Positions 12,476 to 64,000 of a stretch of 64,000 bases of DNA are shown piece after piece. The stretch is taken from assembly GCA_009760855.2 (NCBI GenBank), contig WPIO01000068.1:897001-961000 (forward strand). The letters run 5' to 3'. The notes beneath the pieces are model-generated. The model was given only the letters and a program-made list of their open reading frames with translations, did no database searches and was not told the DNA's origin. The translations under genes and the position numbers were made by a program. Origin of the DNA: Cristatella mucedo (Eukaryota > Bryozoa > Phylactolaemata > Cristatellidae). The stretch's first letter is position 1; every line of letters starts with the position of its first letter.

Positions 12476-12626
12476 GTTGCAGGTGCTGTGAGCACAAGGC
12501 AAGCAGCACGTTCAAAGCCGGGCTGGGCCAAGCTTGTCTGCTGCTGCCCTGTGTATCCGTATGTAGCATGGTACAAGAATTCTGTTTGAGGTGGCTCTTC
12601 GTTTCTACAGCATGCTTCTCTCGGCC

Positions 12627-12667
12627 TGTGTGTGTGTGTGTGTGTGTTGCACATGCTCACATGAGTT

Positions 12668-12718
<51 letters not shown>
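12627..12718. repeat. (GT)n microsatellites
   Basis: Two GT runs, 12,627-12,647 and 12,671-12,718, separated by a short CA-rich spacer. Confidence 0.95.
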
Positions 12719-12721
<3 letters not shown>

Positions 12722-12734
12722 CGTGCGTGTGTGT

Positions 12735-12868
12735 ACAGTCGACTCCGCATATAAGAAAATCGGATGTAGGAATACTCTGCTTATTGGAATAGCAGTTCCT
12801 CGTCCCAGATTTACTCCAGCTATAGCCTCACTCTGCATATGGCAATACTCCACCTATAAGAAGGGTCA

Positions 12869-12869
<1 letters not shown>
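12735..12869 (+). mobile_element. Possible TA-flanked DNA transposon end
   Basis: TACAGTCGACTCCGCATATAAG resembles a terminal inverted repeat of Tc1/mariner-like elements, and similar CGCATAT/TATAAGAA words recur through 12,869. No opposite end is visible because the sequence runs into a GT repeat. Confidence 0.35.

Positions 12870-12870
<1 letters not shown>

Positions 12871-12940
<70 letters not shown>
12871..12940. repeat. (GT)n microsatellite
   Basis: About 35 uninterrupted GT units. Overlapping open frames (VCVCVC, THTHTH) are artefacts. Confidence 0.95.
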
Positions 12941-12943
<3 letters not shown>

Positions 12944-13152
12944 CAGTGGAATATACATGCAGCTATTCTCAAGAGGGAGTGCGACCTGTGGAACTGCACT
13001 AAAGTGCCGGCTGCCACAGGGCTGTGAATCTGAGCAGAGGGTACGATTGGTCATGTTCTTCTTGTGACTTGACGTCAGGATCCAAGCCCTGCTCTGGGCA
13101 CTCGACGAGCATAGCTCATTGCTCAGAGTGTCTGTACTCGTCCTGTATGCGA

Positions 13153-21690: not shown

Positions 21691-22073
21691 ATTCTAGCTA
21701 TGCTGATTGCTGCCGTGCGCTTCAGCTGTCTGGGATCAAGTTTTAAGGATTTATTTCAATTTCTTAGACAAGACCCTAGTTTTGAACCCTTGGAGCCACA
21801 GCCCCGGTTTGGCTGATCATGCCGACCAACAGCAATCTCACGGCCCTAGATGGTTGCTATTGCTGCATGACCGTTGTGCTTACTTGGGCTGACTCAATGA
21901 TTTTGCTTACTCCAAACACTTTGCATAACGTTCATCTCTGTGCTCAATGTGTAAGGCTCGTGCCGTTTTACAAAAGGCTGCCGTTGTAATTTACAATGTG
22001 GAAGTTGTGCAGTTACTTAGCGTTTCCGACCGTTTTCTGCCAACTGGTGCTTAAGACATGTGGCTGTTTGCAG

Positions 22074-22212
22074 ACAGTAGACGTCTTGATGATTACATTA
22101 GACACTTCGAGGAACTGAACTATGACCGCCAGACTCTCGGCACCCGTCATGATCGAGTCAAGCGGTCGACTAACGATAAAAACTTGCATCTAGAATTTAC
22201 AGCCTTTGGAAG
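22074..22212 (+). CDS. ADAM10: ADAM10 exon 2: start of prodomain
   Basis: The acceptor follows TGGCTGTTTGCAG and the donor is GTGTGT. Phase is 1 in, 2 out. Encodes DSRRLDDYIRHFEELNY.. to ..LHLEFTAFGR, matching the ADAM10 prodomain start (human PLNKYIRHYEGLSYN.. LDFHAHGRHF). Contains a basic DRVKR patch, as does the human protein (RAKR). No stop in frame. Confidence 0.93.
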
Positions 22213-23569
22213 GTGTGTACAATCAACACGTCGGTGCAAGTGTGGCAGCTGCTGCAGCTGCGCTTGTACTATCTAGCTTTGTTCGGCCACGCTTTTTCCA
22301 CTTGCTGGCTGTGCTTGGCATCAGAAACCGTTACTAAGAATGCACCCTGATCGACGTACTAGATTGTAGGCTTCTTGGAAGTCCAGTTGCATTGATTTTT
22401 AGTTTGTCAAACGTGCTGTTGTCATATATTTAGGCCATGGCATGCTGTTAATTAAGGGCACAGGCTACTGCCAAAGCGTACTGGGGCCTTCAGCCTTACG
22501 AACTAATTTGAAAGTGCCTGGCAAGTCGGCATCTTGCCCCTTAAGCCTTTGTAAAACCCAGCAAGGTCAAGGTGCAGCTCTTGTGGAAATACTGGGGGTA
22601 CCTTCATGTCCACAGCATGCTTCATCATGCCCTGAAGGCATTTTCACTCTGCTCAAAAGAAGGGGCTTACTTCTTCTCTGAATGTTCTTGTCATAGCAAA
22701 CTTGGCAGAGAATGGGTGTAGTTTCATTTTCTGAAGTGCTTCTCCTAATATCTGTTTCGATTTCTCTCAATGTTGCCCTGAAGCCCTCTGCTAGCAAGAA
22801 TGCCGAGGAGGTCTTGTCATGGTCGCGCTAACAAAACCAGGGTGAGGGCGAATGCTTACTAGTTTTAGAATCAGTTGCCAGTCGATTTGTTAGATTCTAA
22901 TCTATTGGAGCACGAACTGGGTAGGCGATAAGCTATTGTCACACATGTGAGTGGCTCTGTTGTAATAGTTGCCTTTGATAGTTGTAATAGAGCCCATTTT
23001 GATAAGATAAATTCAAGTGTGCTCAACGGTTGTTCACTCGCTCTTTACTTGGCAGTGGACGAAAAAATCGCAGCATCGTAGGCAAGTGGGCTGCTCATTT
23101 AGTGTGTTCAAATCTGAATCGCTTATTCTGTTTCTGTGATGTCCACTCATCTGTCTGCTGTACTGTACTGTCACACCGATAAGCAACCTTGCTTGACTCT
23201 GTTATGTATGGTTGACAGCAATTTTCTGTCTGGGGAACTTAAAAAAGATTGATCGTCTCTGAATCTCAAGTGGTGCTTAACCTTGTATTCCGTGCTGCCT
23301 TTCTGTAAAGCAGTCTTTTTTTTCGAAATTTGCATTTGATGGCAAACAGCCTAGCAGTTAAAGAGCCAGTGTCACATTGGTGAAAGCCAAAATGTCTTAT
23401 TTAATTAGTTTCATCGTATTGCTGTCCCAGAAGAATCGACGTTGACTATTTTGGACAGATCAGCTGCAGACTGGACTGGATGGCAGTGTGTATGTGGTTT
23501 TGCTTGATAGAGCAAGTGCACATTGTGAGGCTGGGGAGTATACTGGCCAAGTTTCTCCTGTGCTTATAA

Positions 23570-27631: not shown

Positions 27632-30210
27632 CAGGGATGCAATGCCGAAATTGATCAATTCTCATTCTATCAATCCATGCGTTCTGACAAGGTTGGTGGC
27701 GGGGTTACAATTGATGTTCGTCAATTGTTTGGCTATAAGATGTGCAGTTTTTCGCATGGGCCGTCGTTTGAATCAGTTGCAATCAGGTCCTCATCTAAGA
27801 CAATGCCTCTCACTGTTGTGATATAACGACCTCCTTCTGGCTGTCTAAACTTGTTTATAGAAGAGTTTTCAGAGTTCCTCGCTAAAATATTCGTGTGTGA
27901 CAGACCGTTACTGATTGCTGAAGACTTCAATATTCACGTTGACAACATTAGAAACAGCCAGGTCCGCTCATTTCTTGACTGTCTGGAGAATTTTGGTTTG
28001 GTCCAGCTCTTTTATCATACCACCCACGTCGGTGGCTATATTCTAGATCTCGTGATTATTAAGGATGTCTTCCCCACTGACCTTGTGGTATGCATGCTGA
28101 CCCTCTCGGATCATTGTTCGGTCTTGCTCACTGTTCCTGCTCATTTGTACATACAGGGTAATGTCGAACTTGTCAAGTGACATAACTTACAAACCATTGA
28201 CATAGACAAGTTTTTTAAATCTGTTTTTGGTGCAGGTCTTCTTGATCTGCATTGAGACTCGACCGGCAGCGTCGATACTCTCACTTATGCAGTGAACATG
28301 AAACTCGGGAGTGCTCTTGACAAGCATGCTCCCGTTCATTCTATCCGTGTACAAAGTCGTGGAAATTCCTTTCAATTTACAAAAAACTCCTAAAGATGTG
28401 CCGTGTTAAGCGCAGGCTTGAACGTCGTTTCAAGAAATTTGGGTTTAATTTAGATCTAGTAAATTTCAATGACTTCCTTCGAGTTTACACCCGGAAGGGT
28501 AAAAAAACCAAGGCTTCTCTTTTCATTCGAAAGCTGAATTCCTGCCAGTCGGACCCAAAACAGATTTATAAAACAGTAAACAATTTACTGGCCAATGCTG
28601 AGAGGTCTGACTCCCCAGATATTACTGGCTCAGCCGAAAAGTTTTCAGCCTTTGCTGAAAAATTGTGCACATTTGTGCCTCCATAAAGCCCCTTCGAGTA
28701 AAGCAATTGTGGAATCACAACCTGTGACCTTCCTTAAAAGGTTTTCCGAGGTTTCTGCATGCGATGTTTCGACCTTAATAAGGTCTAGCAAAAAGAGCTC
28801 ATCTCCTGAAGACCCTATGCCTTCATCTCTGTGGTCTTCACTAGCAGACCAACTTAGCCCTGCCATAACCGAGATTTGTAATGCTTCTTTGGGAAAAGGG
28901 GTCGTACCCAAGTCCTTCAAATGTGCAATAGATAGACCCATACTTAAAAAGCCTGGATTAGATACAGAGGTCCTTGCAAACTATCGCCCAGTTTCCCTTC
29001 TTTCTTTCTTGTCAAAGATTCTTGAAAAAATTGTTGCTAAGCAGTTGGTTGAACATATTGAAAAGAATTAAATGTCAGAAACATTTCAATCATGATTCAA
29101 GAGGCAGCACTCTGCTGAAACTGCTCTCCTCCGTGTTAACAATGACATTCTACGTGGCAATGATGACGGGAGTGTCACTGCCCTAGCTTTGCTAGATCTG
29201 TCTGTTGCCTTCGACACCATTGATCACGATGTTCTACTTGAACGATTGAGAACAACGATCGGTCTGGCAGACGAAGCACTGGCGTGGTCTAAATCACACT
29301 TGTCTGATCGTGTTCAATCCGTGTCGTGTCGGGGTCAGGTCTCACACACGAGACCTGACCTGTGGAGTCTCTCAAGGGTCTGTTCTCGGTCCCTTGCTGT
29401 TTTCCATTTATACTCAAGCTCTGGAAAAAGTGATTAAGGCCCATGGAATTGGATATCACTTTTATGCTGACGATACTCAGTTGCATTTGTTATTCAAACC
29501 GTCGGAATCTGCTGCAGCAACTGAGAAACTGAATGCTCATAGGACACCCTCAGCCTGTGGCTGGATTAAAAGGCTTTGCTCTTCTAATAGGTGTTGCTGT
29601 TGTGCGACCATCACCATGTGCTCGAAATTTAGGTGTTTTCGACAGCTCAAATCCCATGGGTTTGAGCATGTGTCTCCTTTGCGGAAGGAGCTAGGATGGC
29701 TGCCGGTTGAGCAAAGGATACAGAGAAAAGTTCTTACGCTGACCTGCAAGGCCCCCACGGCTTGGCTCCTTCGTACCTAGCTGAACTGCTGCACCAGTTT
29801 CAGCCTCTTCGAGCCCTCAGGTCCTGTATGGACAATAAATTAGCTGTCCCATTCCTCTGCTTAAAGACAGTTGGTGACAGAAGCTTTAGCTCTGCAGGTC
29901 CTAGACTGTGGAACTCGCTTCCACAGTTCTTACGCAACGACAACTACTCTCCTGCTGCCGACTACGGCTCATCCTTTTCAACGGTCCTGAACTGCTACTT
30001 CCATGCTACTCACTACCTCAACTGCTCTCCTGACTCTGCTATGCTTCCCGCTTTCTCTTTTTTGCGTGAGACGAAGTCTGTTGGCTACCGAATGCGTACC
30101 GAAAGCTGCTTAGGCTGTGAGTGCGCTATACAAAACTCTCCTGCGTAACACCCTCATAGTCTTTATGGCTTGGTGGAGTTACAGATACAGTTGGAGATAC
30201 ATTGCATTAC
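27632..30210 (+). mobile_element. LINE B, longest copy (endonuclease and RT), broken
   Basis: The most complete LINE B. Its AP-like endonuclease end lies at 27,690-28,150 (RPPSG, AEDFNIHVDN, LTLSDHCSVL), and linker and RT follow. RT motifs: NYRPVSLLSFLSKILEKIVA near 28,980, LLDLSVAFDTIDHDVLLERL near 29,190, GVSQGSVLGPLLFSIYTQAL near 29,370, FYADDTQLH near 29,460. A deletion after about 29,540 joins the RT to the C-terminal part (PSYLAELLHQFQPLRALRSC). It ends GAGTTACAGATACAG.. and TTGCATTACAT. Several stops and frameshifts show it is inactive. CR1/L2-like by motif order. Confidence 0.9.
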
Positions 30211-35305: not shown

Positions 35306-35559
35306 TACTATTTCAAAGTTGTGTTTATTTTTTAATTGTCGCTTTGCTTGGCTAGCATCACCTGTGATTGTCTTTTTGTTCCTGTGTATCCTTAATTGCT
35401 GCTTCTGTGGGCCGGCGTGTCATGCAAATGGCAATCGGCTCTTAATTTAGCTAGGCTATTGTGAAGGTCACCTAATACAATTTAATTCGGTTCTACTCGA
35501 ATTTTTGCCATAAAGTGCATCTATGTTGGTTCTTCCCTTACTGATTTGCGGCATTTTAG

Positions 35560-35678
35560 GCACTTCCAATTGCATCTGCAGCCGGATACAGAAGGTTTCA
35601 CACCCGATGCTGTAATCGAAGTTGACGGCAAATCTGAGCCTCTCGACACATCGCACATTTATAGAGGAGAGCTGTACG
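35560..35678 (+). CDS. ADAM10: ADAM10 exon 3: prodomain
   Basis: The acceptor follows GCGGCATTTTAG and the donor is GTAGGT. Phase is 2 in, 1 out. Completes GR then HFQLHLQPDTEGFTPDAV.. to ..LDTSHIYRGELYG, matching human HFNLRM.. DTSHIYTGHIYG. No stop in frame. Confidence 0.95.
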
Positions 35679-36232
35679 GTAGGTCGGCCTGTGAGCTCTG
35701 CCATCCTCTCAGTTGCTACCAGCGCATGTCTTGGCACTGCCACCCGTGGGCTGAACAACTGGCGACTGACTGATTACTCTAATTCGCCTGGACCAGGCTT
35801 ATGGCCAAGTAGCAGCCTTTGGAAGGCGCGAAGTGCGGGGCTTACGCTGCGCTTGCTATCCATTGTGGAGCTGGCTACTAATGCAGGCACTGCTCGTTCA
35901 AGTCAGCGTTAAGTGTGTTGTGGCGGCTTAGTGCTTCTGGATTCAGCCACCCTCGAGACTGTGCGCTGAGACCCGGTCGTTTGATGATTTACATGGTCGA
36001 CTTGGTTGGTCGATAAAGTTGGGTTAAAGTCAGCCCAAAATGTGCCCCAGAGCACTTGCACCGATCATGTGGTCGCTTGTAGTTAGCTGTTTGCGCGACT
36101 GAAACGGCCCTTGCATTCGACTCATGTAAATAGTAGTTGAGTTTAAGGTTTTTACTTTTAAGAAGAACCGGTTACCGGAGAGAAGCATTTCAGAATGGAT
36201 GGGTGGGGAAGACCCAAATTTATTCAAATCAA

Positions 36233-36330: not shown

Positions 36331-36534
36331 CTCCTCGATGGCCCACTGCATGCGTCCTGGTGCCTGCCATGGCTCTTCTGTCTAGTTGTGGTAAGCCAAC
36401 GGTAGATTGTGATGCATGGTGAATGAAACCACCAGTGAAGCTTTGTAACAACTTGATCTGGGTGAGCATCGTTCTGTAGTGAACCCTGTGAACCTACAGG
36501 CTCAGGATCATGCTGGTCACCATACTGACTAGTT

Positions 36535-37478
36535 ATGTGCAAGCCCAGTGTGATTCAGAAATTAGAAAGGCTGACGCTCAAAATTGGCTCTGCCAGCATA
36601 TATCCTGTTGTATCAGCTCGAAATCTAGGTGTCTTGTTCCAAAGTGACCTCTCGTTAGACGACCACATCAGCTCCACAGTCAAATCTGCCTATTTTCAGC
36701 TATACAACATAGCTAAAATTCGGGCTTGTTTAGATAAGGATACCACGTCTAACTTGGTCCATGCATTCGTGACATCCCGTCTCGACTTCTGCAACTCACT
36801 GCTCACTGGCCTACCGGCATGTGCAATCAGGCGATTGTAGCTGGTGCAAAACTCCGCAGCTAGGCTTGTCTGTCGTGAGCATTGCAGTTGCCACATCACA
36901 CCACTTCTCGCCAACCTGCACTGGCTACCAGTCAAGCAACGGATCGACTTCAAAGTTTTGTCGCTCGCTTTTACGTCACTTCATTCTTTGGCTCCAGCCT
37001 ATCTCTCAGATCTACTCCCCCACCAGGCCAAGCATCGTACCACCTGCTTTTCGGAATCCAACAGTTTACCACTACCTCGTACAAACCTCAAATCCTTTGG
37101 AGACTGTGCATTTCGTTAGTACACTCCCAAAGCCTGGAATTCCCTCCCGACTTTCGTCAGAACATCCCCTGACTAGACAACATTTAAAAAGAACTTAAAA
37201 ACACACCTATTTAGGACAGCAGTGGGATTTTTAGTGGGTTTCTGTGATTCGTCTTTGACGTACTTATGCGTGCTGACACTGTGCATGCTGCCACTAACAA
37301 CATTTGCATGCTGACCCTGTGCATGTCACCCCTAACCATGTTATTCATGTTGTTTATCAAGCATGATATTACTCACCATTCAATTGCATTTCCCTTTGCA
37401 ACAAACGTAAAGCGCCTAGAAAGAGATTGAGTTCTCTGAGGGCGCTTTATCAAGTGCATTATTGTTATTATTATTATT
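36535..37478 (+). mobile_element. LINE A 3' half, best sense copy
   Basis: Starts in KPSVIQKLERLTLKIGSAS and reads 101 codons to PACAIRRL. After a stop it resumes with QNSAARLVCREHCSCHI to LPRTNLKSFGDCAF. It ends with the 3' UTR, the terminal stem-loop (AAGCGCCTAGAAAGAGATTG..GAGGGCGCTTTATCAAGTG) and (ATT)n. This copy defines the LINE A terminus. Confidence 0.9.
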
Positions 37479-41007: not shown

Positions 41008-41182
41008 GCGATCCGAGCAGTCCCGTCCATGGATCTGTGATTCAAGGTCGATTCTTAGGCACAATAAAACATTCTGACAGTGGCTCCTATTGGGTCGAGG
41101 CAGCAGAAAAGTATTTCCAAAAACCCAGCTTTCATTCAGTCATTTACAAGGAAGAAGATGTGGAGGACAGAAAGTTTTTCGA
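41008..41182 (+). CDS. ADAM10: ADAM10 exon 4: prodomain
   Basis: The acceptor follows GGTTTTTTGTAG and the donor is GTAGGT. Phase is 1 in, 2 out. Encodes GDPSSPVHGSVIQGRFLGTI.. and SYWVEAAEKYF.. FHSVIYKEEDVED, matching human FSHGSVIDGRFEGF.. YVEPAERY.. FHSVIYHEDD. No stop in frame. Confidence 0.95.
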
Positions 41183-41714: not shown

Positions 41715-41853
41715 CGATCTTCGGAAACGTCGCGAAGCCACTAGCAGCAAGGGTGGCTGTGGCAATTCAGACCCGCGTGTCAGCGAATGGATGCGAACTG
41801 TGCAGAACTCGACCGTGCCTGCATCCGAAGGCGTTCGTGATCCTAATCTCGAG
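41715..41853 (+). CDS. ADAM10: ADAM10 exon 5: cysteine-switch exon
   Basis: The acceptor follows CACATATTACAG and the donor is GTCGGT. Phase is 2 in, 0 out. Encodes DDLRKRREATSSKGGCGNSD then RVSEWMRTVQNSTV. The Cys in GGCGNSD aligns with the human prodomain Cys in GGCADHS, which is thought to cap the zinc in the zymogen. The donor is the least certain part. Confidence 0.88.
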
Positions 41854-43286: not shown

Positions 43287-43463
43287 GAGTCCAGCGGGGC
43301 AGATGAACATGGCGCGTTCAAGTACACTCGACGCGGGCAAGAGGTGCACGGTGGCAAACGTGCACCGAGGCAGGCAGCTGGTAACCAGAAGACATGCACC
43401 TTATTCCTGCAGTCCGACCCGGAGCTGTGGCGCTACTACAACGAGACCTTTTACTCGAAGGCG
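43287..43463 (+). CDS. ADAM10: ADAM10 exon 6: prodomain end and start of protease
   Basis: The acceptor follows GCCTACGTGCAG and the donor is GTATGT. Phase is 0 in, 0 out. Encodes ESSGADEHGAFKYTRRG.. GGKRAPRQAAGNQKTC, then TLFLQSDPELWRYYNETFYS. NQKTC..QSD..YY aligns with human EKNTCQLYIQTDHLFFKYY, the first residues of the mature protease. Basic clusters YTRRG and GKRAPR precede it, but the human RKKR convertase site is not conserved exactly; RAPR is the only RXXR match. Confidence 0.92.
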
Positions 43464-45210: not shown

Positions 45211-45409
45211 CATTTAGTTTGCTTGAGACAATGCCCTGTATTTATATGTGCTTTGGCTCAGGTTAGAGCTGCACACGTTCTGAGGAAACGTTTTATCTTA
45301 TGCTTTGCCCTCGGAATCTTGATTTCACACCAGTCTGTTGCTTATGCTTACTGGATCTGTAATGGGTCGAATACAGTTTTTTTGTTGTTGCAAGGCTACT
45401 GCCGACCAG

Positions 45410-45550
45410 GTGAAGCAGCAGATCTCGGCTCTATTTTCGTCGCATGTCAGTGAAGTAAATGGAATTTACACGACCACCACGTTCAAAGACACCACTGGCA
45501 CCAGCCCTAAGCTTTATGGTGGCTACAACTTTCGTGTTGACCGAATATTG
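45410..45550 (+). CDS. ADAM10: ADAM10 exon 7: catalytic domain
   Basis: Donor GTAAGT. Encodes VKQQISALFSSHVSEVNGIY.. then YGGYNFRVDRIL, aligned with human VIAQISSHVKAIDTIY.. FMVKRI. Phase is 0 in, 0 out. The start is chosen because GAC-CAG|GTG gives a gap-free fit to exon 6 (..YSKA then VKQQIS). An acceptor 15 bp upstream (TTGCAAG, exon from 45,395) keeps frame, adds ATADQ and has the better pyrimidine tract. Confidence 0.9.
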
Positions 45551-48219: not shown

Positions 48220-48415
48220 ATTAACACGACGGAGCCATGTGACGACAACATTGCCAGCAACGACAGCCCTTACTGCAACCGAGCCATCGATGCCAGCAAC
48301 CTGCTCAATCTCAACTCGTATCGAAACCACGACGGCTACTGTTTGGCGTTCATATTCACGTACCGAGACTTCTCTGGTGGCACCCTGGGCCTGGCCTGGG
48401 TCGCCGACCCTGGGC
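48220..48415 (+). CDS. ADAM10: ADAM10 exon 8: catalytic domain
   Basis: The acceptor follows TTGTTTTGTTGCAG and the donor is GTAAGT. Phase is 0 in, 1 out. Encodes INTTEPCDDN.. NLNSYRNHDGYCLAFIFTYR then DFSGGTLGLAWVADP, very close to human INTT.. [28 protein letters not shown]. Both 9A and 9B accept its phase-1 donor. Confidence 0.97.
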
Positions 48416-49972: not shown

Positions 49973-50620
49973 CAACTTCTTTTGCAAGTTCACTGCTGAT
50001 TCAACCACACTGCTTTTTTTGGTGGCTTCTTAAGAATTGGCTATTTTTCTCAATCTGATATATACCCCTCGTTTGTAGGTAATCTAGCATTGCAGTTTGC
50101 TATTGGTTTGTGGCCAGGCGACGGAGCAACGGTGCTTCCTGCAGATTTTTTGCTTAATGCGAGTCTAACCTATGAGTGGGCTCCCTCGACGTGCTGGTGT
50201 TCTGGGAAGAAATGTGTGTCTTCAGTACGCGTGTGTGAGCCAAAGCTTATTCACTTATCTTCCTTTTATTTTTGAATAAGGGGCAGCATATCGTCCTGTT
50301 TTAGCGTGCATTGCTTCTTGAAATTTGTAAAAAAAAAATGACTTCCTTGCGAAAGATAAAATGAGAGAGCTATAGGTAATCGTGGCGCTGCTCTGGGCAT
50401 CACGTGTGCGCCCGGCGATTGCTTTTGTACTTACTTGCTCGATGAAGACGTGTCAGCCTTTGGCTGAAGTTACGATTCTTGGCTGCTCATTTTCTCGCAG
50501 CCTGCTTACTCTGCCTTTGCATGAATGCCGGCAAATAAATTGGAAAAAACCTCTTCAAGTGCCGAGCTGTTCGGCAGGCCATGCACGATTGAGACACCGT
50601 CGAGCGCTATTTGTTTCCAG

Positions 50621-50793
50621 GTACGGTCGGTGGGGTGTGCTCGAAGTACACACTCATAACCAGTGACACGATCCAGAGCCCTTTGAGTTTAAACACGGGC
50701 ATCGTCTCATTGCTTAACTACGGTAGAACGGTTCCGTCCGCTGTCTCGGTTATAACGTTCGCCCACGAGATAGGGCACACGTTTGGCTCACCC
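50621..50793 (+). CDS. ADAM10: ADAM10 exon 9A: alternative zinc-helix exon
   Basis: 173 nt, phase 1 in, 0 out; the acceptor follows TATTTGTTTCCAG and the donor is GTGAGT. Encodes 58 residues with the split codon: RTVGGVCSKYTLITSD.. SLNTGIVSLLNYGRTVPSAV then [16 protein letters not shown]. It carries the first two zinc His and the catalytic Glu; the third His is the first residue of exon 10. The open frame, sharp splice sites and retained active site argue that it is functional, not a dead duplicate. It differs from 9B most in its N-terminal half, and has Thr where 9B and human have Asn after the second His. Use is expected to be mutually exclusive with 9B. Confidence 0.9.
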
Positions 50794-51492
50794 GTGAGTG
50801 GCCGTCGGCCATCTTCTGACGTCAGTCGGCACAACATGCCACTTGGAGCCGGCCCATCCCTCCTCCCCATCTTCCTCCCCGACCGCCACCTCACTCTCTC
50901 TTCTTCTACCCCTCTTGTTTTACTCTTTCGGACTCTGATCCTTCGTGAAACGGCCGTGTCACGTGGCCGTGCCATGTCACGGTGGTTACCTCTCGGGGTG
51001 CTGGGTCTCTGGTCTCCCCAACTCGGCGCCCCCAGTTGTAGGCTAGTACACGCTGCCACTCGCTTCACGCTTAAGTCGGCATCTCACTAATCGGCCGTCG
51101 TGCTCAGCTGTCGTGCGGCTCGTCGACAGCCAAACTAACACGCTGCCTCGTTTGGTGTGGCTGCCGCTACCACGGATATTGTTTTGCGGAGTGGCCTCGC
51201 TGTGTAGCCGGCTGCTGTGGTGCCTAACAGCTGCACTAGCGTGGGTGATAGTAACCGGCTGCTGACGGTGCTGCCTAGACAATCCAATTTGGTTGCACTC
51301 GCTTCTTGTGCCATGCGTGCCACTCACGTCGGTCACCAGTCACCGCTACGCTTTGCCACCGCGGCCCTCGGCGGCAGCAGCCGCCCGGCCAGAGCCACTC
51401 CTAACCGCTAGTGGGCGGTAGGCGGGCGGCATTGGGCCTTCTCTTGCGCTGCTCTGCCCGTGCGGTGGCACCGCTCACCGACTTGCTTGCAG
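50794..51492 (+). other. Intron between exons 9A and 9B
   Basis: 699 bp, GC-rich at its 3' end, with no recognised repeat. It would separate the two alternative exons and may hold the control elements that decide between them. No long complementary stem is obvious by eye. Confidence 0.7.
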
Positions 51493-51671
51493 CCAGCAAA
51501 GGCGGAGTCTGTACTAAGTGGTCCCGATACAGTGACGATTCATCCGGCACGTACGTCTATAAAAGCTTGAACACTGGCATTGTCACGATTGTCAACTATG
51601 GCAAGCTAGTGCCGCCAAAGGTGTCGGTAATCACTTTCGCGCACGAAATCGGGCACAACTTTGGATCGCCG
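51493..51671 (+). CDS. ADAM10: ADAM10 exon 9B: alternative zinc-helix exon
   Basis: 179 nt, phase 1 in, 0 out; the acceptor follows GACTTGCTTGCAG and the donor is GTAAGG. Encodes 60 residues: [19 protein letters not shown].. [20 protein letters not shown] then [16 protein letters not shown]. It is closer to human ADAM10 than 9A at VPPKV and HNFGSP, so it probably represents the ancestral form. From SLNTG to GSP it shares 28 of 36 residues with 9A; upstream only GGVC, K and a few others agree. Confidence 0.95.
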
Positions 51672-53655: not shown

Positions 53656-53827
53656 CCTCGCAACAGGCATTCTGCGGCAACGCCATCAGGGAGGAGAAGG
53701 AGCAGTGCGACTGTGGCTACCAGGCCGACTGTCTGCCACGTGATAGAGACTGCTGCCGATGCTGCGTAGGCGCTTCCGACTCGACGACCACCGGCACGTG
53801 CATGCTTCGGTCAAGCGCAGTGTGCGA
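53656..53827 (+). CDS. ADAM10: ADAM10 exon 11: disintegrin domain
   Basis: The acceptor follows CTTTCGTGTCAG and the donor is GTAAGT. Phase is 1 in, 2 out. Encodes ASQQAFCGNAIREEKEQCDC then GYQADCLPRDRDCC.. TCMLRSSAVC. The spacing of CGN..E.CDCGY..C....CC matches the ADAM10 disintegrin segment (human ICGNG..EECDCGYSDQC..CC). Confidence 0.95.
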
Positions 53828-54187
53828 GTAAGTACTGGAACCCGTTGCTGGACCGGCGACCCTGCTGTTGCCGAGTGCCCCTGCGGCTGCTGCTACGAGT
53901 GCTGCAATTGTGAGATCCATAGTCGCCAATGAAAGTCAAAGCATTTGAGATGATGACATCAGGATGCTGCTGCCTCCTCTCCTTCCTCTTTCTCTTCTTC
54001 TTCCTCATTCTCCTGCCTCTTCTACCTTCTCTTCTCCTTCCTTCGTCTTCTACTACTTTTTTCTCCTCAAAACGACATCTTGAGTGCGACAGAGTAAGAC
54101 AGCCAGAGACCAATCAAAGAACAGTCAGGCAAGCAAAATGGATGATGATGCAGAGGAGGGAGGAAGCTGGGAGTGCGTATTGTAAGT

Positions 54188-56035
54188 AGATGTGACTGTA
54201 TCTCCGTCTGTAACTCCACAAAGTCATAAAGACCGTGTGGGTGTTACGTAGGAGAGTTTTGTATAGCGCACTCACAGCCTAAGCGGCTTTCGGTACGCAT
54301 TCGGTACCCAACAGACTTCGTTTCACGCAACAAAGAGAAAGTGGGAAGCATAGCAGAGTCAGGAGAGCAGTTGAGGTAGTGAGTAGCATAGAAGTAGCAG
54401 CTCAGGACCGCTGAAAAGGATGAGCCATAGTCGGCAGTAGGAGAGTAGTTGTCGTTGCGTAAGAGTTGTGGAAGCGAGTTCCACAGCCTAGGACCTGAAG
54501 AGCTAAAGCTTCTGTCACCAACTGTCTTTAAGCAGAGGAATGGGACAGCTAATTTATTGTCCACACAGGACCTGAGTGCTCGAACAGGCTGAAACTGCTG
54601 CAGCAGCAGCTCAACTAGGTATGAAGGAGCCAAGCCGTGGTGGGCCTTGTGGGTCAGGGTAAGAACTTTGCTCTGTATCCTTTGCTCAACCGGCAGCCAT
54701 CCTAGCTCCTTCAGCAAAGGAGACACGTGCTCAAACCGCTGGGACTTGAAGACCAGCCTTGCAGCCATATTCATAGTCCGCTGCAGTGGCATAATAGCTT
54801 TCTTTGGCAGCCCAGCCAAAAGGGAATTATAATAATGAAGCCGAGACAGAACTAGAGAGCTAGTTGAATTTTTTACAAGCCACTGTGGGAGGCAGCTCCT
54901 GATCTTGGACAGGGATCAGATGTGATGGCTAGCTGTAGAGGCAGTTTTCTGAATGAAGCTTTTGAAATTGAGGCAGCTGTCGAACACGACACCTAAATCT
55001 CGAGCAAGTGGTGATGGCCGCACAATAGCGTCACCTATTAGGATGGCAAACCATTTTAATCCAGCCACACGCTTAGGGTGTCCTATGAGCAGCAGTTCGG
55101 TTTTATCATCATTTAATTTCAGGAAGTTTTCTGACATCCAGGATCGAATATCCGCAAGGCAAGCATTCAGTTTCTCAGTTGCCGCTGCAGATTCCGACGG
55201 TTTGAATGACAAATACAACTGAGTATCGTCAGCATAGAAGTGATATCCTATTCCATGTGCCTTAATCACTTTTCCCAGAGGTTGCGGATAAATGGAGAAC
55301 AGCAAGGGACCAAGTACAGACCCTTGAAAGACTCCACAGGTGACCCTTCTCGTGTCTGAGACCTGGCCCCCACACGACACGGATTGAAGACGATCAGACA
55401 AGTAGGATTTAAACCGTGCCAGTGCTTTGTCTGCCAGACCGATTTTTGTTCTCAATCGTTCAAGCAGAACTTCGTGATCAATAGTGTCGAAGGCAGCAGA
55501 CAGATCTAGCAGAGCTAGGGCAGTGACATTCCCGTCGTCGTTGCCACGTAGAATGTCATTGTTAACACGGAGGAGAGCAGTTTCAGTAGAGTGCTGCCTC
55601 TTGAACCCTGATTGAAATTTTTCTGACATTCCATTATTTTCATTATCAGATTATTCATATTCATTATCTTCAAAATCAGCTGCTTAGCAACAATTTTTGT
55701 AAGAATCTTTGATAAGAATGGAAGGGAAACTGGGCGATAGTTTGCTAGGACCTCTGTGTCTAATCCAGGCTTTTTAAGAATAGGTCTAATGATTGTCGAT
55801 TTGAAGGACTTGGGGACGACCCTTCTTCCCAAAGAAGCATTAAAAATCTTTGTTATGGCAGGGCTAAGTTGGTCTGCTAGTGAAGACCACAGAGATGAAG
55901 GTATAGGGTCTTCAGGAGACGAGCTCTTTTTGCTAGACCTTATTGAGGCAGCCACATCGCTTGATGACTGGAGAAGGTTTGTTGCACTTATCACTGTTGT
56001 TGCAACTGACAACCTATACACATTCGTACCTTTTT
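54188..56035 (-). mobile_element. LINE B, RT to 3' end, broken
   Basis: The minus strand reads, from 56,021 down: SSKKSSSPEDPIPSSLWSSL, NYRPVSLPFLSKILTKIVAK, FNQGSRGSTLLKLLSSVLTM (shifted frame), then STETALLRVNNDILRG, LLDLSAAFDTIDHEVLLERL, GVFQGSVLGPLLFSIYPQPL, FYADDTQLYLSF and FLKLNDDKTELLLIGHP. A third frame carries PLQRTMNMAARLVFKSQRFE to the C-terminus. The YADD catalytic box is intact, but two frame breaks inactivate it. The 3' UTR ends at CCGTCTGTAACTCCAC. Confidence 0.92.
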
Positions 56036-57537
56036 TTAATCAAGTTGGGCTGAGTGTCTAAGTGCATACCTCAGTGTATATATTTCTAATCCCTGTGCAT
56101 TGATGCATGTTACTTAGTGAAGGCCTTTGGAACATAGAACTGCAGATTTAGTTAATCACGTTTGAAAAAGCTTTTGGTTTTATCTTGTTCGATAATGAGT
56201 AGCCGACAAAAGGGGCTGTACAAAAGACTTATTCTAACTGTTACTATTATTACTATTATTGTTATTGCTCAGACAGCAGGACTGCAGTAGTTTTGTTTTA
56301 GCTAGCTTTAGAGAGATTCAGCCCGTAGTTTTGGAAATGAAATAAACGTGTTAGCCACCTTGGGGAAATCCTTGCGTTTTGAGAACTAATTCGGCTTCTG
56401 GGATTAAAGTACTCTTTCCATTGTCTATGGAAATGGCATATTTTAAGGCATTTTAGTCGTACCCATCATGTGAAACCTTTTGCATTCCTGCTGTGTCCGT
56501 GTGGGACTTTTTGTAGTGACTTCGCTGTACATTCATATTGTTTAATAGTATTTTGGTGTCAAGAACTTTTATTAATGACAAGAATTTAACAAGATTTTGG
56601 CATTCCATAGATCAGAGCAGTTGTTTGGTGGGACTTCATTTGGCAAATGGATTATTACAGCTCGCATGACAAATAAAACTACTAATAGTCGTAGTAATAA
56701 TGGGTCGTCTGTGTAGCACCCGAGAGAACTAAATCTCTATCCAGGCGCTTTCGAGATCGCTGAGATACAAAGCTGTTACCGAGGGTTAATTACATGCTCG
56801 TATCGTGCTTAGATAGATAAGCTAAAGCATGCAAGGAGACTTTGTGCGAATGTAACCTTATTTTTTGTGATAGAAAGTGTTGAACCCCTCGTGTGCATAC
56901 TATCGGTGCTGTTGGACAAAGATGGGGTCAATCAGTTGATTGGATAGCAGCTTAATATGATTATTCCGTAGCCCTCTTAAACTTTCTCTTTTACTTTGGG
57001 CTCACGAATCAACCCTAGTCCATGCCAGCTGAAATAATGTCTGCCCTTTCCCCCTTTTCCCTGCCTAACAAAGACACTCGAGCGAGTAAAGCTGTAAAGC
57101 TAGCTAGTAAAGCTCGCTTAGGAGTTGGAGCTAGTTATGCTCCCTGTTGCTATTTTTATGTTCGAGGTGCCTTTATTTCTTTAGTTTGGCACAGCATTTG
57201 TAAAGCATCATAGCTGTGAGTTTCGCATTCTTTTTTGAGCCTTAGGCATGCATGTGTGCACATGTGAACGTATGCGGGTGGGTAGGTGGAAAGGTGGCTT
57301 CGGCGCATGCATTTCATATGCATGCAGGTAGATATTCCATCGATCTGTAAATCTGCTTTCCAGGCTTTCCGGCAGTTGGTGTTTAGTAGACTTTGATGTC
57401 AAGTCAGACTAAGAGTTGGCTCCTGGCTGTCGGCCAGTTAATGCCTGCATATGGACAAGTGCCTGTGCCAGTCGAAACCTTGTTGACTATGCAGCCTACC
57501 TGCTTTGTGTGTGCAACTGCACCTCGTGCTGCTATGG

Positions 57538-58289: not shown

Positions 58290-60172
58290 AATAATAATAA
58301 TAATAATATTGCACTTGATAAAGCGCCCTCAGAGAACTTAATTTCTTTCTAGGCGCTTTACATTTGCTGCAAAGTGATATGCAATTGAATAAGTAAAATC
58401 ATGCTTGAAAAACAAACAAAATGATTTAGGGGTGACATGCACAGGGTCATCATGCAAATGTGGTTAGTGGCAGCATGCACAGTGTCAGCATGCATAAGCA
58501 CATCAAGGACGAATCACAGGGACCCACTAAATGCTGGCCTAAATAGGTGTTTTTAAGTTTCTTTTAAATATGGTCAGGTCATGGGATGTTCTGATGCAGG
58601 TCGGGAGGGAGTTCCAGGCTTTGGGAGCATACGAGCTAAATGCACGGTCTCCAAAGGATTTAAGGTTTGTACGAGGTATTTCTAGACTGTTGGATTCCGA
58701 AAAGCAGGTGGTACGATGCTTGGCCTGATGGGGTAGTATATCTTAAAGATAGGCTGGAGCCATTGAATGAAGAGACCTAAAAGTGAGCGACAAAACCTTA
58801 AAGTCAATCCGTTGCCTCACTGTTAGCCAGTGCAGGTCGGCGAGAAGTGGAGTAATGTGGCAACTGCGACGTTCATGACAGACAAGCCTAGCTGCGCAGT
58901 TTTGCACTAGCTGCAATCGCCTGATTGCACATGCTGGTAGGCCAGTAAGCAGTGAGTTGCAGAAGTCGAGACGGGTTGTCACGAATGCATGCACCAACTT
59001 GGACGTGGTATCCTTATCTAAACAAGCCCGAATTTTAGCAATTTTATGAAGCTGAAAATAGGCGGATTTGACTGCGGAGCTGATGTGGTCGTCTGACGAG
59101 AGGTCGCTTTGGAATATGACACCTAGATTTCGAGCTGATTCGACAGAAGATATGCTGGCAGAGCCAATTTTAAAAGTCCGCCTTTCCAATCTCTGAATCA
59201 CACTGGGTTTGCCCATAACTAGTAAGTTAGTTTTAATCAACGTTTAGTTTAGAAAATTTGCTGCCATCCATGATCGGATGTCATCAATGCATGCAGCTAG
59301 TGAGTTGAGAGAATTTGAGGTGCTCGAAGGCTGGGAGGGATCAAAGCAAAGGTACAACTGAGTGTCATCCGCATAGAAGTGAAGGCCTAGATTGTGCTTG
59401 GCAATCACATCAGCAAGAGGCAGAGTATAAACCGTGAAAAGAACCGGACCTAGCACTGAGCCCTGAGGTACTCCATATTTCAGAGGTACTTCAGATGATC
59501 TTTGTCCATTCACGTCAATACTCTGGAGTCTCCCACTGAGATAGGACCTGAACTACTGCAGAGCAGTGCCAGTGATGCCCAGGCGAGATGAGAGGCGCTC
59601 TAGAAGTACTTTGTGATCGATGGTATCAAAAGCTGCCGAAAGATCGAGCAAAACAAGCAGAGACACTCTACCCATGTCTGCATTCCTAAGTAGGTCGTTG
59701 TATACCCGAAGCAATGCTGACTCTGTGGAGTGATTAGCTCTAAAGCCAGACTGGAACTTACTAGCAAGGTGTGAGGTTTCGATATATGAGTTCAGATGGT
59801 CTGCCACGACCCGTTCCAGTGTCTTTGATAGGAATGGTAGAAGGGAGACTGGGCGGTAGTTGCTTAAGTTCTCTTGGTCTAGTGTAGCTTTCTTGAAAAG
59901 TGGCCTGACTACAGCTTTTTTGAAAGGTGCTGGGACCTGACCTGAGGCTAATGGCATATTAATGATGTTGGTTATGCATGGCAGCAGCAGATCAATGCAA
60001 CGTAGTAGCAGGACAGTGGGAATAGGGTCCATTACATGTTGTCTTCTTTGATTGAGATACGAACTTTAGGACTAGATCACTAGTGACCTGCTTAAATGCA
60101 GACATTGAGGCGCAGCCAGGAACCGAGGCACAGCATTCTAGTGGGAAGGTTGTCATCGCAGTCTTCATGGTC
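58290..60172 (-). mobile_element. LINE A, longest copy (RT to 3' end), broken
   Basis: Minus strand from 60,032: DPIPTVLLLRCIDLLLPCIT, NYRPVSLLPFLSKTLERVVA, HSTESALLRVYNDLLRNADM, LLDLSAAFDTIDHKVLLERL. After a stop at about 59,550: SSEVPLKYGVPQGSVLGPVL and LHFYADDTQLYLCF. After another break: LVMGKPSVIQRLERRTFKIG to the C-terminal LLADLHWLTVRQRI. All RT boxes are visible, split over three frames. It is inserted into LINE B, with ATGGT on both sides (about 58,285 and 60,168). Confidence 0.92.
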
Positions 60173-60765: not shown

Positions 60766-60864
60766 CCCGTCTGCAGGACCGTGCTGCAAGAGCTCATGCT
60801 CTTATTATTCGGTTGCCGATAGAGTCATATGCAAGCCAGCGACGGAATGTCAAGGCCAATCGAT
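60766..60864 (+). CDS. ADAM10: ADAM10 exon 12: end of disintegrin domain
   Basis: The acceptor follows GTTCGCTCGTTTTAG. Phase 2 in gives VC-D-PSAGPCCKSSCSYYSVAD, then RVICKPATECQGQS, aligned with human CSPSQGPCCTAQC..KCRDDSDCAKEG. The chosen donor (GTGCAT at 60,865) is weak. It is the only phase-2 site compatible with exon 13, and it removes the Cys of the following MC pair. The exon is sure; its 3' end is not. Confidence 0.85.
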
Positions 60865-62658
60865 GTGCATATATCCTTTTTGTGACTTCCAAAATAGCCT
60901 CGTGTAGTTTTCCCCCTTGCACTTGCGGATTTGTCTCCATGCCTGTCTGCTGCCATATGGATTACCACCTTCCCCCTCCCTGAGTCCTTATGGTAGTCCG
61001 GCCTAGCCTCGGTCGGCAGGCGTCACGGCTGATCGTGGTTAAGATGCCATTAACCGGAAGTGGAGAGCTTAGGTTAAGTCGGGAAGCAGCTGGCTGACGA
61101 GCCCCTCCCCACCCACAAATACTGAAGGGAGCAAGCAGCAAAGTGGATGCAGTGCTAGTTTGGGGAGAGAGGTGCCACAACGAGGCAATGCTGGGTCGTC
61201 AGAGTACCATTGTGCATCACGAGTGGTGAAATTTTGCTCACCTGCTTAGGGAACGGAAACTTGGCAGCATTTTTTTCAAGTAGCCGAATTGGAGTGGTGC
61301 CACCGTGTGGCCCGGCAGCTGCTGGTGGTCAGTTACCTCGAAAACTGTTCGGCCACCGGCATTGGATTTGTTTTATCCGAAAGACTGCCTCCGAATCTAG
61401 TCCTACAGCAACACTCATTCCCAGCTTAGAATTAGTGACCCCTTACGGCAACGGCCTGGCTAAGGAAGTTACTAGCTCACTGGTTTTGTCTACGTCCAAC
61501 TACTATAAATTGCTATAGCAGGGCTACCGAAGAAGCCATTAAGCCTCTGTCAGTGCTAGCTATGTACGGCCACTAGGTTGGTTTTCATATCTGACGTTCT
61601 ATCGTGTCTGCCCTTGGCTGAAAGAGCTGCCAGCAGACTCAAACGAACTTGATACTTTAACCCCACCGTGCCACCATCATCCCCCCTGCAAAGATTAGGC
61701 AGTCCTCTTCGTGTCTCTCGCATCCTCGGTACATCAGTTCAATAGCCGTTTCTTTTTTTTTGCTCTGCGAGTGCTATGAGTCTGGCAAGCGCACCTCCAA
61801 AAGTATCGCTAAACCACGTTTTCCTTCCTGCTACTGACTCCGGCACATCGCATGTAGCTGTCCCATGCGTGCTATGTCAGCACAGCTAATTTCTTCTGAT
61901 ATCCTCCTGCTTGCAGCTGTGCTTCTCGCCTTCTCCTCATTGATAATCATAGCATTGACACGGGGTTTATATCAAGTGCCTTGAAACAAACAAATCTCTT
62001 TCTAGGCACTTTGCTTATGCTGAAAAGGAAGCGTGACATTTGGTCAGCTATAGCGAGCGCAGTTTCAGCAACCAAATGGCAACGAGGGGACAGTGCACGC
62101 AGCCACAGCAAAGGCTGCGAGGAACAGGTGGGAGTTTAGCTGTTTAATTGTGTAACCCTCTCCAACGTAACGCCTGCTTAGTCTGCGTAGCTTTGTGGGC
62201 TTCCAGCTTCCAGAGATGTCGTACTTGGGAGAATCTTCGTTTTGCCGTCACTCGCTGGCCCCCCTCAAAAAAAACAGGAGAGGAAGGCAGGCTGCATGCT
62301 GTGGCTGCTGCACTCGGTGGAGTGGAGGAGTTTCATTGCGCAAAGCGACTCCCACTGAGCCCGCCGCTCGGCAAGCAAGCTCCCTGAGCGTAGGGTGCAC
62401 CTCTCCGGCTGCTTGCAGTGTAGCACCGGCCGATCGCATACGAAGGCTCGCGAGCATGTTCGTGACCTGCACGGTGCTATGGGATTGGTGAGCGTTTTGT
62501 ATTCACTTCCTTGTCAGAGACTGCTCCCGTGCTCAGGCAAGGTTCACCCGGAGTGAGGCACGCTCGGCAGCAGCAGCAACAGTAGGGCCAGAGTTTGCTG
62601 CCACCCAATTATGCCCCTGATCTGCCACCTGCCGTGACTTTAAATCCTTGACTCCGAG
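60865..62658 (+). other. Intron 12
   Basis: Contains a LINE A-like fragment at 61,965-62,150. 60,865-61,964 and 62,151-62,658 have no recognised repeat. An open frame at 62,195-62,491 is Cys-rich but does not follow ADAM10 spacing. Confidence 0.65.
61965..62150 (-). mobile_element. LINE A 3' end, old
   Basis: AATCTCTTTCTAGGCACTTT and GCTTATGCTGAAAAGGA follow the antisense LINE A terminus; the 3' UTR words are diverged. Confidence 0.55.
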
Positions 62659-62749
62659 CCCCACTGGCAACAGCTCCAGCTGCCCGAGCCCGGTGCCCAA
62701 AGCGAACTTGACGTCATGTAATCAGAACACTCAAGTTTGCATTAATGGC
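62659..62749 (+). CDS. ADAM10: ADAM10 exon 13: cysteine-rich region
   Basis: Encodes ..TGNSSSCPSPVPKANLTSC then NQNTQVCING, matching human [20 protein letters not shown] and VCING. Donor GTGAGT, phase 0. The start is uncertain: AG sites at 62,658, 62,673 and 62,679 all fit phase 2, and an in-frame TGA at 62,618 bars a longer exon. The first is chosen as it keeps the GNSSSCP motif. Confidence 0.88.
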
Positions 62750-62909: not shown

Positions 62910-63012
62910 GAGTGTGCTTACTCGATATGTTTAAAAATCAACTGGGTCGACTGCGAGCCACCGCTACCTTCAGACGGCAGCACGGATTCCCTGTGCTACA
63001 TATCGTGCCGAG
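62910..63012 (+). CDS. ADAM10: ADAM10 exon 14: cysteine-rich region
   Basis: The acceptor follows CTGCCACTTTGCAG and the donor is GTGAGC. Phase is 0 in, 1 out. Encodes ECAYSICLKINWVDCEPPLP then SDGSTDSLCYISCR, aligned with human [20 protein letters not shown].. ELCHVCC. It is the last exon in the window; about 150 further residues are expected downstream. Confidence 0.93.
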
Positions 63013-63244
63013 GTGAGCGCCCACCACGACTTGCTGCCTCCCTCCCCCCCCCCCTTAAGCGCTGCCGTGTTAGGCTGGGTTAGGCCAGGAAGGTAAGCAG
63101 CCAGGTCGTGGGTGTAAGCAGAGCAGCTTGCCTGAGCCGTTGCTGCTTCTGTCGCGACTGCCCTCATGGCTCTGTCTACAGCCGAGCAGTCGCCGGACGA
63201 GATGGTGCACGATGCTTTGCTGGAAGCTCACGCTCTCTCAGCCG

Positions 63245-63677
63245 AAGGCAGCTATATGCTTTTCGGAATCTAACTGTTTACTTATACCTCGTACAAACCT
63301 CAAATCCTTTGGAGACCGTGCATTCAGTTTGTATGCCCCTAAAGCCTGGAACTCATTTCCTAGTGGTGTCACGACATCCCCTGACTTGATGAAAATTAAA
63401 AAGAAGCTAAAGATGCATCTATTTATCACAGCATTTAATGGGTCCGTGTGATTCGTTCTGTATGTGCTTATGCATGCTAACACTGCATGCTGCCACTAAC
63501 CACACTTGCATGCTGACCCTTTGCATGTCACGTATAACTATGTTATGCTTGTTGTCATTGAGCATGCTATCACTAATCATTCGATCATGCTTCCTTTGCA
63601 GCAAATGTAAGTGCCTAGAAAGACACTGAGTTCTCGGAGGGTGCTTTATTAAGTGTGTTATTATTATTATTACATGT
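63245..63677 (+). mobile_element. LINE A 3' end
   Basis: Sense frame SESNCLLIPRTNLKSFGDRA then FSLYAPKAWNSFPSGV and TTSPDL, then 3' UTR, terminal stem-loop (AAGTGCCTAGAAAGACACTG) and ATT repeats. 5'-truncated. Confidence 0.85.
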
Positions 63678-63784
63678 GGGAAGGGCAGCAGCAGCCAGAG
63701 GAGCTTGGTGTGCGTCTGCCTGGTTTCGTTCAGCACCGGCAACTTTCGTGCTGGCTCAAGCCTGTTGCTGCTGCACCATTACAT

Positions 63785-63845
<61 letters not shown>

Positions 63846-63905
63846 CACGCTCACACATGCTCACACACACGCTCACACACGCGCACACACATGCACACAC
63901 ACACA
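63785..63905. repeat. (CA)n microsatellite, compound
   Basis: About 28 CA units, then interrupted CACACGCTCACACATGCTCA repeats. Confidence 0.95.
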
Positions 63906-64000
63906 GCCTTTGCCTCTCTGCCTGTCTCCCACTCGCTTTTTCCATGCTTTCCGAAGCCACTCGGCAGTGGTTCGTGGCGGATTCATGCTGTTGGTAAATA

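Follow-up and report, generated by a model that had tools for sequence, protein, structure and literature searches.

The ADAM10 gene of the bryozoan Cristatella mucedo carries its active-site exon twice in tandem, and these two copies, here called 9A and 9B, are by their sequence a real, old and constrained duplicate pair. In productive mRNA they are very likely mutually exclusive, and this one gene probably makes two ADAM10 forms. In our view, the pair likely goes back to a tandem duplication of one ancestral ADAM10 exon 9, after which both copies persisted as alternative cassettes for the active site. Among animal sheddases, ADAM10 is the main activator of Notch. The window analysed here is a stretch of 64,000 nucleotides from contig WPIO01000068.1, and all positions refer to it.

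In a structure-sequence comparison, the closest solved structures for both predicted isoforms were the ADAM10 chains 6BDZ and 6BE6, with ADAM17 far behind. The E-value to 6BDZ was 5.5e-46 for the 9A isoform and 2e-51 for the 9B isoform, against best ADAM17 E-values of 2.3e-28 and 5.3e-29, respectively. This bears out the identification as ADAM10 in an earlier note on this DNA. Both isoforms also scored above the cut-offs of Pfam reprolysin models (four for 9A and five for 9B, among the matches listed). A whole-protein profile run over the six-frame translated window placed the prodomain, the reprolysin domain, the disintegrin part and the Cys-rich region in this order on the plus strand (Table 1). 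The gene extends over more than 40 kb within the window, and it seems to continue beyond the window end, ahead of its membrane anchor; no exon for the membrane anchor or cytoplasmic tail was present among the whole-protein profile matches in the 64-kb window. One intron holds a non-LTR retrotransposon-like open frame on the minus strand (59553-60065; RVT_1 match 6e-14), and similar-looking intron frames were seen by eye at 54244-56039 and 58743-59243 on the minus strand and at 28580-29780 and 36529-37116 on the plus strand. Long TG/CA dinucleotide repeats, which appear as CV or TH runs in translations, lie at 12567-13067 and 63619-63999.

Table 1. Exons and candidate splicing elements of the ADAM10 gene in the window (exon numbers 5 and 6 are our own numbering).
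Feature	Position	Strand	Evidence or remark
Prodomain exon (matched stretch, boundaries approximate)	22070..22216	+	whole-protein profile i-E 1.4e-11
Prodomain exon (matched stretch, boundaries approximate)	35552..35689	+	whole-protein profile i-E 1.3e-8
Prodomain exon GDPSSPVHGS...	41008..41182	+	i-E 8e-17; end placed from donor sequence
Probable further prodomain exon (boundaries approximate)	41722..41829	+	weak match, i-E 0.017
Exon 5, prodomain end and protease domain start	43295..43463	+	i-E 2.9e-9; frame joins exon 6
Exon 6, protease domain	45395..45550	+	tblastn 1.7e-4; i-E 3.6e-10
Exon 8, common to both isoforms, ends in phase 1	48220..48415	+	tblastn, frame; donor GTAAGT
Extra AG near 9A acceptor	50603..50604	+	possible weak-acceptor mark
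Exon 9A, 173 nt, alternative active-site exon (HEIGHTFGSP)	50621..50793	+	profile, frame, splice sites
Pyrimidine tract (87%), 75 nt	50853..50927	+	candidate splicing-control element (putative function)
Exon 9B, 179 nt, canonical active-site exon	51493..51671	+	profile, frame, splice sites
Exon 10, common to both isoforms, third zinc His is first codon	52028..52229	+	tblastn, frame
Exon 11, disintegrin part with CCxCC insert	53656..53827	+	tblastn, profile, frame
Cys-rich region exon (3' boundary approximate)	60766..60871	+	i-E 5.3e-9
Cys-rich region exon (5' boundary approximate)	62663..62749	+	tblastn 4.4e-7; i-E 1.6e-9
Probable next Cys-rich exon (boundaries approximate)	62910..63020	+	i-E 7e-4

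Exons 9A and 9B are flanked by exon 8 on one side and exon 10 on the other, each present once, and are separated by an intron of 699 nt. Both are open throughout, have GT-AG sites, are entered in phase 1 and left in phase 0, and share their split first codon with exon 8. The acceptor and donor are GTTTCCAG and GTGAGT for 9A, and GCTTGCAG and GTAAGG for 9B, while the acceptor of exon 10 reads CGTTGTAG. The exon coordinates, splice sites, phases and spacing given in the earlier note were reproduced base by base, and the same holds for its residue layout, with two zinc His and the catalytic Glu in each copy and the third zinc His in exon 10. GGVC and SLNTG are likewise retained in both copies. 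When an exon-9 profile (84 distinct rows, both window copies included) was run over the six-frame translations, 9B was matched with an i-E of 2e-30 and 9A with an i-E of 9e-26; since the next of the 14 listed matches had an E-value of 1.1, these two matches are not due to chance. No third exon-9 copy was found in the window by this profile. Furthermore, tblastn with the 120 listed homologues, window copies excluded, placed exon 9 at these two sites only (E <=1e-3). By tblastn and profile together, exon 9 is the only doubled exon in the window. A separate search with the 9A region alone gave two matches among 11 candidates.

The two copies are identical at 34 of 58 aligned residues. Their identity at codon positions 1, 2 and 3 is 72, 72 and 22% (positions 1 and 2 versus 3, Fisher p 3e-10 with sites treated as independent), and over the 58 codons pN is 0.29 and pS is 0.90, which is saturated. 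Synonymous saturation combined with conserved first and second positions indicates that the changes since duplication were filtered at the protein level. The tandem duplication proposed earlier is supported, and both copies were maintained as protein. For its age we turned to an exon-9 tree of 32 rows (30 of the 242 homologues, 58 columns, one starred fork), on which 9A and 9B pair at 98/76, a fork that is not starred. Watersipora is a bryozoan genus, represented here by homologue P0131. Neither the grouping of 9B with Watersipora (p-AU 0.164) nor that of 9A with Watersipora (p-AU 0.0975) was rejected, so that on this tree the duplication may predate or postdate the split from Watersipora.

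Comparison with the homologues identifies 9B as the canonical copy and 9A as the fast one. Among 122 full-length homologues, 119 are closer to 9B and one is closer to 9A, with two ties. At the zinc motif HExGHNFGSxHD, 9B conforms, whereas 9A keeps the His residues, including the third, the Glu and the Gly but has Thr in place of the Asn that follows the second zinc His. All 122 full-length homologues have Asn there; in the 191 of 242 homologues where the zinc motif was found, the residue is N in 185, S in five and A in one. Serralysins carry Thr at this place (HEIGHTLG), so the Thr of 9A need not abolish activity. The relaxed features of 9A could alternatively reflect a loss of function.

This leads to the strongest rival explanation, in which 9A is a fading duplicate, either a remnant or an exon seldom used, and exon 8 is joined to 9B constitutively. 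Such fading would fit the departure of 9A from five of the 32 columns conserved at >=85%, as compared to two for 9B, its long branch on the exon-9 tree (2.56 versus ∼0 for 9B, measured over few columns), the extra AG close to its acceptor, and the single Watersipora sequence, whose HNFG-type exon 9 is nearer to 9B (0.59) than to 9A (0.52). However, synonymous sites are saturated and yet first and second codon positions have remained alike, and in simulations of decay a 9B-like frame stayed open in only 23% of the runs at 30% random replacement and in 13% at 50%. The frame of 9A, both its splice sites, the zinc His, the Glu and the GGVC Cys are all intact, which argues against a long-standing loss. 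Taken alone, the codon-position pattern may be compatible with a late loss, and the death of 9A, if any, may have been recent. Altogether we regard a fading 9A as improbable, and prefer the reading in which both cassettes were retained for use.

The reading frame itself imposes a choice between the copies. With lengths of 173 and 179 nt, both exons leave a remainder of two on division by three. Between exon 5 and exon 11, transcripts with 9A alone or 9B alone have no stops, while those with both exons have eight and those with neither have four. When both are joined, the first stop falls at nt 768 of the exon 5-11 stretch and two junctions of that stretch remain downstream; when both are skipped, it falls at nt 615, with the next junction 107 nt further. 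A productive mRNA must therefore carry exactly one of the two, which supports the claim in the earlier note that the exons are probably mutually exclusive. Under the usual rule, premature-stop mRNAs of such a layout would be cleared by nonsense-mediated decay. The pair also has the general features by which mutually exclusive exons are recognised, being adjoining homologous exons of similar length and equal phase that are free of stops. For human mutually exclusive exons, a frame shift leading to decay is among the restraints described in the part of PMC5740500 available to us, and reads that join both exons were tolerated in that human set where joining breaks the frame.

The same frame shift could serve to lower ADAM10 output, if the second copy were mainly co-spliced with the first as a poison exon. 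The early stop upon joint inclusion and the two junctions of the tested stretch downstream of it would suit this role, but a poison exon needs no protein-constrained metalloprotease sequence with matching phases, and both copies have these. We therefore hold control by a poison exon to be very improbable. Least credible of all is an assembly or paralogue artefact, in which 9A was misplaced from another ADAM10 gene or haplotype: lophotrochozoans do have several ADAM10 genes (for instance, two Crassostrea virginica proteins of 52% identity), but here exon 9 alone is doubled, on the same strand, collinear and with matching phases, and its synonymous divergence is saturated, whereas haplotype copies would be nearly identical.

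We mapped the positions at which 9A and 9B agree onto a predicted structure of P0131, the Watersipora homologue (777 residues, built from an alignment of 30 rows; mean pLDDT 75.8, with 71-90 in the blocks that span residues 351-410). Its exon-9 part contains a hairpin of two strands, a further strand and the active-site helix. Agreement was found at none of 10 hairpin positions, at four of five in the further strand, at 12 of 15 in the helix and at 18 of 28 in between; along the sequence, it amounts to 6/22 before SLNTG and 28/36 from SLNTG on. The earlier note concluded that the two proteases have different catalytic cores. Their sequences do differ, mostly in the predicted hairpin ahead of the active-site helix, but they have identical zinc ligands and the same Glu, and the helix differs at three of its 15 positions, so that this wording is too strong. 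On the model, a retuned cleft rim is likelier than an altered core. The zinc chemistry is thus common to both forms, while its neighbourhood differs. The hairpin presumably lies beside the substrate cleft, and its change may retune substrate choice.

The donors of 9A and 9B match the consensus equally well (7/9 each), whereas the AG-free stretch upstream of the acceptor spans 14 bases for 9A as compared to 69 for 9B, 53 for exon 10 and 82 for exon 8. The pyrimidine tract of Table 1 begins 60 nt past 9A and holds four TCTT and one CTCTCT motifs, which may be sites for a PTB-like factor. Equally pyrimidine-rich windows make up 0.08% of the plus strand, and the 64-kb window has two further tracts of still higher content. 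The richest plus-strand stretch (95%) lies at 53970-54044, shortly after exon 11. Both the shortness of its AG-free stretch and the tract past its donor fit 9A as a regulated exon, and our working hypothesis is that 9A might be controlled by a PTB-like factor with 9B as the default.

Other routes to exclusion were considered. A search for intronic docking and selector pairing gave one 14-nt inverted repeat of 86% only, and in a duplex test of six intron pairs against 30 shuffles each, which chains weak pairs and thus has little power, none stood clearly apart (16, 24, 2, 23, 5 and 30 of the 30 shuffles at or below the observed value). Exclusion through a distant branch point, as described for OGDH in the available text of PMC7969005, is unsupported here, as the tract ends 566 nt before 9B and the AG-free stretch of 9B comprises 69 bases. 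Exclusion by too short an intron is ruled out by the length of the intron between 9A and 9B.

In the mechanism that we propose, the spliceosome would connect exon 8 with one copy or the other, and wrongly spliced transcripts would be lost to nonsense-mediated decay or yield truncated protein. The 9B form would be the default, general sheddase. The 9A form would be the regulated one. It would keep the zinc chemistry but have another hairpin close to the substrate cleft and a zinc motif with Thr, and its substrate choice, or its activity on Notch or on further ADAM10 clients, may be altered. Should both cassettes be expressed, a splicing switch would alter the active site in part and leave the prodomain, the partner-binding domains and the membrane anchor as they are. 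This would constitute a natural chimera experiment on the surface patches that set ADAM10 substrate choice, and a source of sheddase diversity by a route other than gene duplication. More tentatively, and with less than even confidence, we suggest that bryozoans, or one lineage of them, have two ADAM10 sheddases per gene through exchange of the active-site exon, that the 9A form with its rebuilt hairpin and HEIGHT motif cleaves different clients or is a weakened or dominant-negative version, and that shedding of Notch and adhesion molecules is set by a splicing switch and not by paralogues as in bivalves.

Mutual exclusion of exons is in itself a familiar arrangement; it is the exchange of the zinc-binding exon of ADAM10 that is unusual. 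As in the tandem sets described in the accessible parts of PMC5740500, PMC9741552 and PMC2581893 (SNAP25 exon 5), the exons here are adjacent, similar in length and of the same phases, one would be used at a time, and joint use breaks the frame. What is exchanged here, by contrast, is a piece with two zinc ligands and the catalytic Glu. In the available main text of PMC5740500, which covers the human set, ADAM10 and metalloprotease do not occur, and neither do ADAM, protease or peptidase in that of PMC9741552 or of PMC7954323. The last of these, in its available part, reports nine mutually exclusive events touching catalytic sites, with a fly nucleotidase-like gene as example; there too splicing swaps part of an enzyme active site, but those cases change catalytic residues whereas 9A and 9B keep them. 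The MASP1 gene, which gives rise to MASP-1, MASP-3 and MAp44, likewise produces two proteases through mutually exclusive splicing, but according to the accessible text of PMC3759447 it swaps whole serine protease domains, encoded by one exon or six, whereas here a cassette of 57-60 residues is swapped inside the domain. With known ADAM10/Kuzbanian proteins the gene shares its domain order, its closest solved structures and the exon-9 motif; unlike them, it has two exon-9 versions, of which 9A reads HEIGHTFG instead of HExGHNFG. An alternative exon 9 in ADAM10/Kuzbanian was not reported in the titles and abstract beginnings of the papers listed.

On a quick tree of 55 rows (the window and 54 author-chosen rows of the 242 homologues), the window ADAM10 pairs with P0131 at an SH-aLRT of 99. 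The branch of P0131 is flagged as long (1.52, compared to 0.8 for the window and a median of 0.34). In path length, the annelid Owenia lies closer to the window than P0131 does. By score, P0131 ranks third over the shared exons, behind one protein and Owenia, and eighth from exon 10 onward. A CCxCC insert in the disintegrin part is found in the window (CCRCC, in exon 11) and, among the 242 homologues, in P0131 alone (CCKCC), which makes it a useful bryozoan marker. Tree and insert, as independent lines, suggest that the gene is probably of bryozoan origin. The one P0131 sequence examined, from a cluster of three, has a single exon-9 version; the protein database was clustered at 90%, a level at which isoforms differing in one short exon would merge, and the label isoform X2 of P0131 implies further isoforms.

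Among the bivalve matches, ADAM10 diversification proceeds via separate genes, in contrast to the exon pair found here. Several ADAM10 proteins each were seen in Crassostrea virginica (P0129 and P0154) and Potamilus (P0173, P0175 and P0185), in each case on a contig of equal length, which suggests tandem gene copies in both. The Crassostrea virginica "isoforms" X2 and X3 were rejected as exon-9 isoforms since, at 52% identity, they are paralogues. When the exon was scored locally on its own, 9A exceeded 9B for four of the 242 homologues. One of these is P0024, a short ADAM10-like protein of 255 aa from Mytilus edulis, whose exon-9 part includes CSRYTL and LSLNTGIV and scores 169 with 9A and 153 with 9B; on the tree it stands beside P0121 on a long branch, away from the other bivalve ADAM10s.
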